The translations under genes and the position numbers were made by a program. From contig NZ_CP026167.1 in assembly GCF_002902985.1 (NCBI RefSeq), positions 186,001 to 250,000 of the forward strand: a stretch of DNA of 64,000 bases, read 5' to 3'. Positions 21,555 to 51,128 of this stretch are shown piece after piece. Within the stretch, counting starts at the first letter, position 1, and each line of letters begins with the position of its first letter. Under the pieces are notes generated by a model that searched no databases, was not told the origin of the DNA, and saw only the letters and a program-made list of their open reading frames with translations. This DNA comes from Leclercia sp. LSNIH1. Lineage in GTDB: Bacteria > Pseudomonadota > Gammaproteobacteria > Enterobacterales > Enterobacteriaceae.

Positions 21555-21630
21555 GGCCCCTTAGCTCAGTGGTTAGAGCAGGCGACTCATAATCGCTTGG
21601 TCGCTGGTTCAAACCCAGCAGGGGCCACCA
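21555..21630 (+). tRNA. ileX: tRNA-Ile2, anticodon CAU (lysidine-modified), prophage integration site
   Basis: 76-nt cloverleaf including an encoded CCA end; it matches E. coli ileX except in the T-loop, where TTCAAAC replaces TTCAAGT. The 7-nt anticodon loop is CTCATAA with CAT anticodon; this tRNA reads AUA after TilS modifies C34. The 3' portion from 21585 is duplicated at 51078, marking it as attB of a prophage. The two T-loop bases that differ from the distal copy fit positions 59-60, so folding should be unaffected. Confidence 0.95.
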
Positions 21631-43194: not shown

Positions 43195-43213
43195 ATGCTT
43201 TCCCCGCCACGCC
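43195..43213 (-). other. cos site (19-nt cohesive-end core, 186 type)
   Basis: Minus strand reads GGCGTGGCGGGGAAAGCAT, which as I recall is the 19-nt cohesive end of phage 186 (P2 differs at two positions). It sits between Q and the SOS cassette, the usual cos location. The interval 43056-43194 has no gene and probably includes terminase-binding sites. Confidence 0.9.
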
Positions 43214-43256: not shown

Positions 43257-43282
43257 AAAAAAGCCCGCCGGGACTGGCGGGC
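43257..43282 (-). terminator. Terminator of the SOS cassette
   Basis: Minus-strand stem gcccgcc/ggcgggc, 6-nt loop, T6. Lies ~90 bp after the stop of the UmuD-like gene and shields cos from transcription. Confidence 0.88.
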
Positions 43283-43372
43283 CTGAGCGTTAACGATCCT
43301 CAAACGATCATGCAAATTCATGCACCTTATGCACGCATGACTGCAAAACGGGTAATTAGGGGTAAATATTCC

Positions 43373-43696
43373 CTAAATTACCGGGCAATTATCGTCACTG
43401 ACAGCACGATTTATCAGGTGTGTAACCCGGCCTAAAACTACCACGTCGTCAAGCGCGTCGCCTTCCAGCGCCTCGCCGTCTGAGGTTATAAAAGAGTGAC
43501 CGGCGACTTTTGCAAAATGCGTACGCCCGAATGCCTGGATCAGAACATCTGCACCTGGCGGGCATTTTAGTGCGGGGTTAATCACCGCATACCCTGCTGA
43601 CGTTTCAATAATACGACTGTTAGCTGTGATGCCGCATAAGCTGTTTGGAGTCAGGACAGTCTCTACGTAGTCCTGTGCCGGGCTAGGAAATCCCAT
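43373..43696 (-). CDS. UmuD-like (S24 family) protein, LexA-controlled
   Basis: 107 aa. The start MGFPSPAQDYVE matches UmuD exactly where RecA-stimulated self-cleavage leaves UmuD' (G-F-P-S-P-A-A-D-Y-V-E); the N-terminal arm is absent. The rest fits the shortened UmuD core: GADVLIQAFGRTHFAKV and a C-terminal VVVLGRVTHLINR like UmuD's VFGVVIHVVK. A Ser (ANSR) and a Lys (FAKV) could correspond to the catalytic pair, but the usual SGDSM motif is not intact. RBS gaggcg is 6 nt upstream. Second gene after the LexA box. In phage 186 the Tum antirepressor is encoded in this position; a Tum-like role is an inference. Confidence 0.78.
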   Translation of the reverse strand: MGFPSPAQDYVETVLTPNSLCGITANSRIIETSAGYAVINPALKCPPGADVLIQAFGRTHFAKVAGHSFITSDGEALEGDALDDVVVLGRVTHLINRAVSDDNCPVI

Positions 43697-43770
43697 AACT
43701 AACGCCTCGCTGTGCTCGTTGTTTGAGCCTTGCAGGTGTTAGAAACCAGTTCTAACACCTGCAACGCTCC

Positions 43771-43956
43771 TTACTCAAAAGGAATGGCAGAGAAGATTAC
43801 GGAAAACTGCCGGTTGCGTAGTGTGGCGTCGCCAGCTATCTCGGCTATCAGGTTCAGCGCTATTTCCCTGTCTCGCTCATGACAAACACCCTCTGATACC
43901 AGTCTGGCAATCAGCTCTACACGTTCCAACCGTACCCGCTCTTGTAAATCGTCCAT
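43771..43956 (-). CDS. Small protein, first gene of LexA-controlled cassette
   Basis: 61 aa, charged and helical (MDDLQERVRLERVELIARLV), no recognised family. It lies directly downstream of the LexA box and 74 bp upstream of the UmuD-like gene. RBS AGGGGGG abuts the ATG; the start may be 43959 or 43956. Not DinI-like by sequence, although 186 carries a DinI-like gene near here. Confidence 0.65.
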   Translation of the reverse strand: MDDLQERVRLERVELIARLVSEGVCHERDREIALNLIAEIAGDATLRNRQFSVIFSAIPFE

Positions 43957-43976
43957 CATCCCCCCTAACAACTACA

Positions 43977-43992
43977 CTGTATATAATTACAG
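43977..43992. promoter_or_regulatory. LexA (SOS) box
   Basis: CTGTATATAATTACAG, a CTGT-N8-ACAG palindrome with extended flanks ACTG..CAGT. It is 20 bp upstream of the first start codon and overlaps a probable -10 (TATACT on the minus strand). It should make the cassette DNA-damage inducible. Confidence 0.88.
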
Positions 43993-44105: not shown

Positions 44106-46319
44106 TTATTTTGCGGCCTTTTCGAGCTGGCGCACCCTGCTCATGATGCTGGCCGCCCTGGCTGAGGCTGGCGTATTAGCAGCATAAACGTCACCACTCG
44201 CCGAACCTCTACGCCAGCGGCCACCAATAAACAGCGCCGCGCCGGAAATTAAAGACAGCGCCTCTCCCCGGCTGAGTGTTTCGCCGGTTAAAAGGTGCAT
44301 TTCGTCAGTTGCCCTGGCTATGGCCGCCGCGTTCTGCTCTGTAACGTGGTCGAATTTTTGCCCGGTAGCCGTTTTTTTCTTCCGCAAACGCTCCGTTAAC
44401 TGTCTGCGCTCACGCCGGTTTAGTGGCCGGGTGAGATCGATACCGGGATCCGCCACCGGATCCCCCGTACAGTTATTGACAGAACTCCGAGAGGGCGCAG
44501 GCGCGCCCTTAACGTCAACGGCCAGGTCAACGGCCCGCTTCGGTACAATTTTCCACTGCACAACGCGGGTCACGATTGGCGAGCCGTCGCCAACCTCGGT
44601 GTCATAAACGCCCTTAACACGGACGGTTTCCTCGCCGTAGTCATTGACCGAATCGCTGCTTTCGTACCAGGTGCGCACCTGCAAATCGTCACGGCGTACG
44701 AACGGGCCGCCCTGGGCGTTTACATAACCGGCCCAGTCGCCTGCGTCAGCTGCGTCATGCACAAGGGCAAATTCGATACTCAGGCCGCGCGCCGTTTCTG
44801 CGTCAGCCATTCGACGCAGCTCGCGGTAAACGGTGACCGGCGCGCCGCCAACAAACTGAAACTGCCGGATGTGCCAGCGGGCCGCCCAGGCAGAAACAGC
44901 GGGCGCGGTCTCTTTAAGCGTTTCGCCGCTCTCGTCATCGCGCTCATCGTCCAGGGCGTAGCCGTCGATATTTTTGCTGATGTATTTTGCAACATAGCCA
45001 GTTGCGCTCCCTTTGTCGGGGTCAATAGCCTCAGCATGGAAGCGGGCCTTACGGGCTTTATCGCTTTTCAGTTCCTGACGGTCTTCCTTGCAGGCGTATT
45101 TGCTGATGATGGCGCGTACGCGGGCCACGTCTTCCGGCAACATGAACATCAGCATATGCCAGTGCGGCGTGCCATCGTGGTGAGGCTCGGCCACTCGGAT
45201 CCCGAACACGCGGATCTCATCGCGGTGAAGTTTGGCGCGGATTTTGGCCCACAACCCGGTAAGGTAGCGCTGGGTATCCGCCGGGCTGGAGCCGTTCCAT
45301 TTGGTATTACGGTAACCGGCGCGGGTTGTTGCGTGGAATTTTGACGGGGCGGTGAGGGTGTAAAACTCACCGACATAGCCCAGCTCGTTGCAGATATTTT
45401 CAAAGCCACGGATGCGGGTCATCAGCTCACAGCGACGGATCGCCGGATTAGCTACGCTGCCGTCATATTTGTCGATCAGGCTGATGCGGTTGCCTTCCTC
45501 GTCTTCCAGTTCCATTCCCTTAAGAAACTCACGCGTGCGGCGTTTCTGCTCACGCCATTCTGTAACGCAGCCCTTGCTTGCGTAAGCCTTGCGAGTCTTG
45601 CTGACATTGCCCAGGGCAATTTGCAGATGCTCGCGCCACTCAGCAGCGACACGACGCAGGCGGCCCTGCCACCATTTTTCTGAGGCCATGCGCAGGGTGG
45701 CCGGGGCCACATCCTCAGCCGTTACAAATTTAGTGGTGATGCGCTCCCATAGCGGCGGCGCATTCCTGAAATGCCGGGTGATGCGGGCGGCGCAGTGGTA
45801 GGAGGCGTGAAGGATTTTTAGGTCACTGCCGGCTTCCACCTCGATGGCGCCCAGTTCGGAAATAATGAAATTCGCGATATCACCGGCCAGCAGATCGATA
45901 TCGGCTTTTGACATATCCGGCAGGCGGTTAAACCGAGCCGTCATGTTTACCAGGCGGGACGCCATAAAGCGCACGTCAGCGGCGTCAAAATGGCCGCCGA
46001 ACGCAGCGCCGGAAACGTCTGACTCGATCCCTGTGATGCTGTATTTATTTGAAACCAGCTCAAGGCGTGGCAATGCCTTCCGGGTGAAATTCACCAGAAA
46101 GGCATTGGCTCGCGCTAAACCGTGGTGGCGCTCCAGCTCATCAGCCCGGCGGCGCACGTCGTAACGTACGCAGTCCGGCTGTAACTCCAGCTCATGCCGC
46201 GCACGCAGCAACGCCGCAATCTGCTGATCGCGGCGGTGCTGTTCTGCGTGTGTCAGGTACGGGCTTGCGATAGCGTCGCGGGGCGCGTTCCATACGTAAG
46301 GCAGGGCAACATCACTCAC
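44106..46319 (-). CDS. A: Replication initiation endonuclease gpA
   Basis: 737 aa; rolling-circle initiator of the HUH class. HUH motif PHWHMLMF (about 390-397) and the two-Tyr motif YVAKYISKN (about 447-455), where the nicking tyrosines lie. In P2 the origin lies within A itself. Overlaps dam by 4 nt, so the early operon runs int-distal genes to A. Confidence 0.94.
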   Translation of the reverse strand: MSDVALPYVWNAPRDAIASPYLTHAEQHRRDQQIAALLRARHELELQPDCVRYDVRRRADELERHHGLARANAFLVNFTRKALPRLELVSNKYSITGIESDVSGAAFGGHFDAADVRFMASRLVNMTARFNRLPDMSKADIDLLAGDIANFIISELGAIEVEAGSDLKILHASYHCAARITRHFRNAPPLWERITTKFVTAEDVAPATLRMASEKWWQGRLRRVAAEWREHLQIALGNVSKTRKAYASKGCVTEWREQKRRTREFLKGMELEDEEGNRISLIDKYDGSVANPAIRRCELMTRIRGFENICNELGYVGEFYTLTAPSKFHATTRAGYRNTKWNGSSPADTQRYLTGLWAKIRAKLHRDEIRVFGIRVAEPHHDGTPHWHMLMFMLPEDVARVRAIISKYACKEDRQELKSDKARKARFHAEAIDPDKGSATGYVAKYISKNIDGYALDDERDDESGETLKETAPAVSAWAARWHIRQFQFVGGAPVTVYRELRRMADAETARGLSIEFALVHDAADAGDWAGYVNAQGGPFVRRDDLQVRTWYESSDSVNDYGEETVRVKGVYDTEVGDGSPIVTRVVQWKIVPKRAVDLAVDVKGAPAPSRSSVNNCTGDPVADPGIDLTRPLNRRERRQLTERLRKKKTATGQKFDHVTEQNAAAIARATDEMHLLTGETLSRGEALSLISGAALFIGGRWRRGSASGDVYAANTPASARAASIMSRVRQLEKAAK

Positions 46320-49382: not shown

Positions 49383-49961
49383 ATGAAGATCAGCGACTAC
49401 ACATTTGAGCCGTTAGCTATCTTGGATAGGATTTGTGAGGTTTACGGTTTTAGTCAGAAAATTCAGCTTGCTAATCACTTTGATATTTCTGCTAGCTCCC
49501 TCTCCAACCGCTATACACGGGGCACAATTTCCTATGACTTTGCTGCGGTTTGTGCTCTTGAAACGGGCGCTGATCTCCGTTGGTTACTGACCGGCCAGGG
49601 GGAAAGGTATAGTGAAAAGTCAAGCTCACCCGAAGCTGCAAAGATTGAAACATTCACATTAAGTGAAGAAACCCTTACCAAAGATAGCGTATTGAGTATC
49701 AGCACTAAGTTTTTCACTAAGCCTCTTGCCGATGGGTTAGGGGTTAAAGCTGATGGCAAATTGTATTTTGTTGATAAAAATATCCCTTTTGCTGATGGCA
49801 CATGGTTGGTTGATATTGAAGGCGCTATTAGCATCCGGGAGCTAACACGATTACCCGGCAAAAAGCTACACGTTGCGGGTGGCAAAGTCCCTTTTGAATG
49901 TAGTTTTGATGAGATTAAAACGTTAGGCCGCGTAGTAGGGATTTATAGCGAGGTTAACTAA
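49383..49961 (+). CDS. cI: Phage repressor CI (186 type)
   Basis: 192 aa, the 186 CI length, starting MKISDYTFEPLAILDRI. HTH region GFSQKIQLANHFDISASSLSNRYTRG and C-terminal ELTRLPGKKLHVAGGKVPFEC are nearly the 186 sequence. 186 CI is not self-cleaved, so induction needs an antirepressor. The frame is open upstream to 49281 but the RBS AAGGAA precedes 49383. Its stop overlaps int. Confidence 0.93.
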   Translation: MKISDYTFEPLAILDRICEVYGFSQKIQLANHFDISASSLSNRYTRGTISYDFAAVCALETGADLRWLLTGQGERYSEKSSSPEAAKIETFTLSEETLTKDSVLSISTKFFTKPLADGLGVKADGKLYFVDKNIPFADGTWLVDIEGAISIRELTRLPGKKLHVAGGKVPFECSFDEIKTLGRVVGIYSEVN

Positions 49962-51010
49962 TGGCCGTAAGGAAAAATCCCGCCGGTGGGTGGATCTGCG
50001 AGCTTTACCCTAATGGGGCCAATGGTAAACGTATCAGACGAAAATTCGCTACCAAAGGAGAGGCGCTGGCCTATGAGCAATACACAGTCCAAAACCCGTG
50101 GAATGAGGAACAGGAAGACCGGCGCACACTGAAAGACCTGATTGATTCATGGTATAGAGCACACGGTATAACTTTAAAAGATGGCCTCAAGCGTCAGTTA
50201 GCCATGCACCATGCCTTTGAGTGCATGGGCGAACCTCTCGCCCGCGATTTCGATGCGCAAATGTTTTCCCGTTATCGAGAGAAGCGCTTAAAGGGCGACT
50301 ACGCCCGATCAAATAGAGTGAAGGAAGTATCTCCACGCACGCTCAATCTTGAGCTTGCCTATTTTCGAGCGGTATTCAATGAGCTAAACCGCCTCGGGGA
50401 ATGGAAAAGCGAGAACCCGCTAAAGAATATGCGCCCTTTCCGTACGGAAGAAATGGAGATGGCCTGGCTAACTCATGACCAGATTGCACTACTGCTTTCA
50501 GAGTGTAAACGCCATGACAATAATGACTTAAGTACGGTAGTAAAAATTTGTCTTGTTACTGGTGCCCGCTGGTCTGAGGCTGAGGGGCTTAAGAAATCCC
50601 AGCTTTCGAAATACAAGATCACCTTTACTAAAACTAAAGGAAAAAAAAACCGAACCGTACCGATAAGCCAGGAGCTTTACAACGCTTTGGTCGAAGATAA
50701 AAAAGATGCTAAGGGTAAGCTTTTTAGTGAATGCTACGGGGCGTTCCGATCCGCACTGGAAAGAACTGAAATTGAGTTACCTGCCGGGCAGCTTACCCAC
50801 GTTCTACGCCATACCTTTGCTAGTCACTTTATGATGAATGGTGGTAATATTTTGGTCTTACAACGAGTGCTCGGCCATACCGACATAAAAATGACTATGC
50901 GTTATGCTCATTTTGCGCCCAATCACTTAGAGGACGCAGTTAAGCTGAATCCACTGGCGGTAAGTGGCGATAAAGTGGCGGTAGAAATGAGTAACATTGA
51001 TAATCCTTGA
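49961..51010 (+). CDS. int: Tyrosine-recombinase integrase
   Basis: 349 aa. Catalytic residues: Arg in TGARWSEAEG (about 200), HxxR in THVLRHTFASHF (about 275-286), His in VLGHTDIKM and nucleophile Tyr in MRYAHFAPNH (about 315). Start overlaps the cI stop by 1 nt, so it is made from the lysogenic transcript. It lies 68 bp from attR. Confidence 0.95.
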   Translation: MAVRKNPAGGWICELYPNGANGKRIRRKFATKGEALAYEQYTVQNPWNEEQEDRRTLKDLIDSWYRAHGITLKDGLKRQLAMHHAFECMGEPLARDFDAQMFSRYREKRLKGDYARSNRVKEVSPRTLNLELAYFRAVFNELNRLGEWKSENPLKNMRPFRTEEMEMAWLTHDQIALLLSECKRHDNNDLSTVVKICLVTGARWSEAEGLKKSQLSKYKITFTKTKGKKNRTVPISQELYNALVEDKKDAKGKLFSECYGAFRSALERTEIELPAGQLTHVLRHTFASHFMMNGGNILVLQRVLGHTDIKMTMRYAHFAPNHLEDAVKLNPLAVSGDKVAVEMSNIDNP

Positions 51011-51077: not shown

Positions 51078-51128
51078 ACTCATAATCGCTTGGTCGCTGG
51101 TTCAAGTCCAGCAGGGGCCACCAAATTT
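51078..51128 (+). repeat. attR core (distal copy of the ileX 3' end)
   Basis: 51-nt copy of 21585-21635 with gt in place of ac. It carries the usual enterobacterial T-loop and CCA end but no 5' tRNA half, so it is not a functional tRNA. Could also be the shared att of two tandem prophages. Confidence 0.92.

Follow-up and report, generated by a model that had tools for sequence, protein, structure and literature searches.

In a 64,000-nucleotide (nt) stretch of Leclercia sp. LSNIH1 (contig NZ_CP026167.1, positions 186,001 to 250,000; hereafter the window), a 186-like prophage carries on the minus strand, flanked by a gene A homologue and cos, a LexA box followed by two genes. The first, which we call tumN, encodes a protein of 61 amino acids (aa) and the second a UmuD'-like protein of 107 aa. 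We propose that this is the SOS (tum) operon of the prophage, in which TumN would be the antirepressor and the UmuD'-like protein an accessory; we give this explanation as a whole a probability of about 0.7. No description of a Tum-UmuD' operon was found in the titles and abstract openings of the open-licence papers that the literature searches listed. The original prediction, made from the DNA letters, had taken the repressor to be a CI of the 186 type and the operon to stand in the place of tum, and both claims are supported (CI identity, gene A homologue and cos in Table 1).

A Tum homologue as candidate antirepressor

A profile search, one of the checks proposed with the original prediction, matched TumN to PHROG_189 (positions 4-60 of 151 aligned, E 4e-20), and TumN is 65% identical to residues 4-60 of phage 186 Tum (57 residues). 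The two other signs by which Tum membership was judged, a LexA box in front and a location between A and cos, as in the p95 SOS operon of 186, were both found. Tum is described as the SOS-made CI inhibitor of 186 (excerpt of PMC7708051) and, in the part of PMC3121763 available, as resembling a fusion of an antirepressor with DinI, the upstream half being the antirepressor in PSP3 according to a personal communication there. Judged by its sequence, the 61-aa protein is a Tum homologue and the antirepressor candidate of the operon. A search of the protein database gave 221 relatives of TumN. Among the 120 of these that were listed, a length near 63 aa is common, and several bear the name Tum from their source. 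Because candidates longer than 1.75 times the query were not searched, fused Tum proteins could not appear among them.

Tum of 186 has 146 aa with a fused DinI domain, whereas in the window the open reading frame stops after residue 61, leaving the N-terminal domain alone, without the fused DinI domain, and the UmuD'-like gene comes next; no DinI was found in the 20-kb stretch searched. A fused DinI domain was not counted as defining for Tum, because PSP3 (tumA/tumB) and Fels-2 (STM2728/STM2726.1) are split. Both have separate first and second genes at the equivalent place, but their second gene is DinI-like and their first gene is of another type (T3 in PSP3, T2 in Fels-2; types below).

A UmuD' form lacking the catalytic residues

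The 107-aa protein begins M-GFPSPAQDYVE, and UmuD of the same genome continues with GFPSPAQDYVEQR after the QC at its cleavage point; 11 of 11 residues past that point agree. G2, F3, S5 and P6 show no variation across all 30 sequences aligned, namely the query together with 29 of the 79 found. The family search led to PHROG_3469 (UmuD-like), the fold is that of UmuD', as had been expected, and homology extends beyond the N-terminal arm. Pfam S24 gave no match to the protein, and neither it nor TumN matched any Pfam family above cut-offs. The pair Ser60/Lys97, which we take to be the catalytic pair of the S24 self-cleaving peptidases UmuD and LexA, is missing: an 11-residue gap lies over the Ser60 loop and Ala stands in the Lys97 column. 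The ratio of nonsynonymous to synonymous substitution rates (dN/dS) is 0.02-0.11; the gene is under purifying selection, and a decaying relic is ruled out by these values. The protein would be made already in the UmuD' form, with no need of RecA-assisted cleavage and without the residues for cutting itself.

P1 HumD is similar in its LexA box, its MGFPSPA start, its DDCPVI end (SDDNCPVI in the window) and in being a UmuD' without the cleavable arm, but it is 129 aa long and keeps the aligned Ser and Lys. TumN had no match in the 4-kb P1 stretch searched.

Twelve distinct P2-like loci, window included, have the UmuD'-like gene, and in ten of the other eleven (L294 stands outside this comparison) it is 84-97% identical to that of the window, behind three first-gene types and with several CI classes. 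A tblastn search matched the protein in 73 phage records, 47 of them Klebsiella phages; identity is 50-61% in the 40 of these 73 that were listed. The UmuD-like proteins of the lambdoid phages mEp390 and phiES15 belong to the same family; mEp390 has a LexA box, a 79-aa gene and then the UmuD'-like gene, with a DinI gene diverging. Unlike in the window, the lambdoid genes follow a 79-82-aa PHROG_3893 gene by TGATG overlap, or come directly behind the LexA box. The genome of the window itself has three further UmuD'-like copies in like arrangement and one fragment; it also has a umuD on the chromosome and, on other contigs, two genes of the umuD type. Since it occurs in mEp390, other phages and other operons of its own genome, the UmuD'-like protein is not bound to 186-type repressors.

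Two side observations concern this genome. Loci L004, L005 and L006 are LexA-box operons in which a 79-82-aa gene (PHROG_3893, function unassigned) runs into the UmuD'-like gene. The two umuD-type genes (L014 and L015, on contigs C2 and C3, probably plasmids) each have a LexA box and are followed by a umuC-like open reading frame recognised by eye.

The LexA box in the window and its relatives

CTGTATATAATTACAG is the sole CTGTN8ACAG in the window, and the 20-mer around it agrees at 17 of 20 positions with TACTGTATATATATACAGTA, which we take to be the LexA consensus. Because 0.54 such sites are expected by chance in 64 kb (at least one was present in 37 of 100 shuffles), this box alone proves little. 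A LexA-type box stands just upstream of the first gene in 46/46 genome-contig loci with a model match (L067, one of the 47 fetched, had no such match and was left out) and in 79/80 viral loci with a model match, the best 80 of 356, the exception beginning at a contig end; the background is 4 of 6597 tiles of 160 nt. The box predicted ahead of the 61-aa and 107-aa genes is one that relatives keep. For the UmuD'-like gene, a box lies within 480 nt in 32 of the 37 scored viral loci; of the five without one, three lie at contig ends, and the other two (L166 and L172) truly lack a box at that distance. From the box we infer that tumN and the UmuD'-like gene would be switched on together when LexA is cleaved after damage.

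Tum types and repressor classes

The first genes of the 12 P2-like loci fall into three types: T1 (window, L069, L191, L193), T2 (L187-L190, L294) and T3 (L186, L192, L194). CI could be read in ten, T1 occurring with 186-like CI (3/3), T2 with classes b/c (4/4) and T3 with class d, which has a double helix-turn-helix (HTH; 3/3). Identity of gene A to that of the window is 35-97% within T1, 34-92% within T2 and 95-97% within T3. Phage 186 belongs to T1 and has a class a CI, Fels-2 belongs to T2 with class c, and PSP3 to T3 with class d. Profiles of T1 align with those of T3 and of T2, those of T2 and T3 do not align directly, and PHROG_1993, 698 and 8554 bridge the types; on these alignments the three are distant relatives.

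A wider set, taken from the best 80 of each scan, comprised 249 loci, of which 217 had a CI; dereplication left 136, and 135 after one with a CI score below 60 bits was dropped. At a relative score of 0.45 there are eight CI clusters, and 131 of 135 loci lie in a cluster dominated by their own type. At 0.35 there are two, one with 40 T1 and 50 T2, the other with 44 T3 and 2 T1. Within the commonest A class, T1 splits 34 and 2 over these two CI clusters and T3 0 and 32 (the few T2 loci left out). The first gene thus appears to follow the repressor class, by a tie that is not strict; one-to-one CI specificity of TumN was rejected on account of L226, L234, L271, L263 and L301. These five loci are candidates for broad-range antirepressors or non-inducible prophages.

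The second slot

In the 249 loci, not dereplicated, the first gene has DinI as a neighbour or fusion partner in 125 and UmuD' in 18 (some contigs fetched twice), never both; clustering of second genes gave 105 DinI and 18 UmuD' of 212. Of 113 distinct combinations, DinI is present in 41, UmuD' in 10 and neither in 62; the two never occur together (p 0.013). The UmuD'-like gene occupies the slot that in relatives is often filled by DinI, likewise a modulator of RecA and the SOS response. PMC6363387 describes DinI as a modulator of RecA and places the access of UmuC to the nucleoid late in the response, once UmuD has been cleaved; an excerpt of PMC7092418 describes P1 HumD as an already activated, shorter UmuD. 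HumD is also annotated as complementing UmuD'. The slot, this timing and the descriptions of HumD suggest a role directed at DNA polymerase V (Pol V) or RecA, leaning to activation. The Gifsy antirepressors GfoA/GftA likewise stand in a LexA operon with a DinI homologue, but in reversed gene order, and the part of PMC3121763 that treats them mentions no UmuD'-like gene.

Layout of the operon and the intergenic hairpin

Table 1. Features of the operon and prophage (window positions).
Feature	Positions	Strand	Remark
Gene A homologue (nicking at replication origin)	44106..46319	-	upstream neighbour of operon
LexA box CTGTATATAATTACAG	43977..43992	.	CTGTN8ACAG
tumN, Tum N-terminal domain on its own (candidate antirepressor of CI)	43771..43956 (61 aa) or from 43959 (62 aa)	-	PHROG_189, 186 Tum identity
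15-bp hairpin between tumN and UmuD'-like gene	43730..43764	-	fold energy vs shuffles
UmuD'-like gene, 107 aa, PHROG_3469	43373..43696	-	begins at residue following UmuD cleavage point
Intrinsic terminator-like stem and T-run, operon end	43261..43284	-	4 such sites in 1-kb stretch vs 1.1 in shuffles
cos	43195..43213	-	identical to 19-base 186 cos
CI repressor, 186 type, expected TumN target	49383..49961	+	69% identity to 186 CI over 192 residues
int	49961-51010		

Both prophage ends are present, marked by a 28-bp direct repeat from tRNA-Met at 21585-21612 and 51078-51105, whose copies are candidates for the attL and attR that bound the prophage. Three Rfam matches near the operon were all under the gathering score and were taken as chance.

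The hairpin of the window, outer arms included, has a folding energy of -31.8 kcal/mol (z -8.1 against shuffles), and no U-run follows it. An inverted repeat of differing sequence is found at the equivalent place in all 12 P2-like UmuD' loci, and a conserved leader of some 36 nt comes after it. When 162 nt are folded at minimum energy, the repeat forms a simple stem, by eye, in ten of the 12 (not L192 and L193). Truncated pieces of L187 and L192, in which one arm is incomplete, do not go beyond shuffles (z -1.9 and -1.4). Pairing was counted in the nine T1 and T2 sequences, leaving out T3, whose register is shifted by one: 92% of pair cells pair, against 31-48% when slid, and 0/500 shuffles reached as high a value. 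Four pairs are changed on both sides, a number reached by 43/500 shuffles, and further pair types are no more numerous than in shuffles (458/500). The hairpin is kept, partly with covariation, and is possibly an attenuator or a processing site.

Discussion

We propose that DNA damage, by way of LexA cleavage, would bring both genes on together; TumN, as others report for its 186 homologue, would then bind CI and end repression, inducing the prophage. The UmuD'-like protein would most likely join host UmuC and supply Pol V activity, or RecA filament control of the Pol V type, at once on induction, as reported for P1 HumD. Host partners may be at hand, given the chromosomal umuD and the two umuD-type genes with umuC-like reading frames. 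We put an activating, HumD-like role for the second gene at a little under even odds.

Several results weigh against the proposed explanation. Searched as a single sequence against the PDB, the 107-aa protein matches UmuD' without significance (E 0.09), and a sigma-70 scan of 1 kb gave no promoter-like site at the LexA box (one site elsewhere, chance mean 1.0). The tie between type and CI varies with the threshold: T1 and T2 fall together at 0.35, four of 135 loci are in the cluster of another type at 0.45, and T1 occurs with several CI clusters. In L226, a TumN near-identical to that of the window accompanies a CI that agrees with the window's at only 67 of 186 aligned positions (32/80 and 35/106), and T1 is paired with class d in L234 and L271 and with class b in L263, T2 with class a in L301. 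Action of other antirepressors on non-cognate repressors, mentioned in the part of PMC3121763 available, could explain such pairs, which remain a weakness. The p values overstate independence, because the loci are related and were fetched by first-gene type, and T2 also tracks an A class. The target domain of TumN on CI is not located, because type information hardly differs between the DNA-binding (0.350) and C-terminal (0.320) domain means, which are not corrected for kinship; the top columns cluster near the HTH. Many phages do without a second-slot gene, since 62 of the 113 combinations have neither, and deleting dinI of Gifsy-1 and Gifsy-3 had no significant effect on induction (same part of PMC3121763).

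The second gene admits other readings. It might damp the SOS response, its product acting as a decoy for UmuD, UmuC or RecA filaments and so keeping Pol V mutagenesis low in the producing cell. This would agree with its place in the slot of the RecA modulator DinI, beside which it is not seen there, and with the loss of Ser60, Lys97 and 11 core residues, which may have changed the contact surfaces; yet HumD, which also starts MGFPSPA, carries an annotation of UmuD' complementation, the window protein and host UmuD' are identical over the 11 residues that follow Met, and lambdoid mEp390 does have a DinI gene adjoining its UmuD'-like operon, and we consider damping unlikely. A passenger (moron) with no induction or SOS role in this phage would sit well with the many combinations lacking both second genes, but the low dN/dS and the LexA box ahead of the gene in three operon contexts, with most misses at contig ends, make this improbable.

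The original prediction had offered either gene product as a candidate antirepressor, which is supported for the partner, through its match to Tum, and not for the UmuD'-like protein. That the latter acts as antirepressor, alone or jointly, by pairing with the C-terminal domain of CI, which shares its fold, is very improbable: it is only 11% identical to that domain, the C-domains of M. tuberculosis LexA (8.1-9.2) and lambda CI (8.2-8.5) score alike, its gene is 84-97% identical beside several CI classes and is found in phages of other kinds, and the operon already has a Tum homologue. Antirepression was set aside as the main reading given this independence of CI class and the Tum homologue beside it; modulation of host Pol V, the alternative named in the original prediction, appears the better reading.

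More tentatively, the P2-like tum operon may be a two-socket induction module, in which the first socket would take a Tum-type antirepressor fitting the CI class and the second either DinI or a born-cleaved, catalytically dead UmuD', coupling induction to instant control of Pol V or RecA without the slow UmuD cleavage of the host. Natural variation here would separate the two jobs of Tum, and the prediction is that the choice of repressor to be opened lies with the antirepressor type and not with its DinI or UmuD' partner. A compact UmuD' without a catalytic centre may help to find out what the polymerase and RecA require of UmuD', and the arrangement would open to testing the question of why prophages induced by SOS retain SOS modulators next to their antirepressors.
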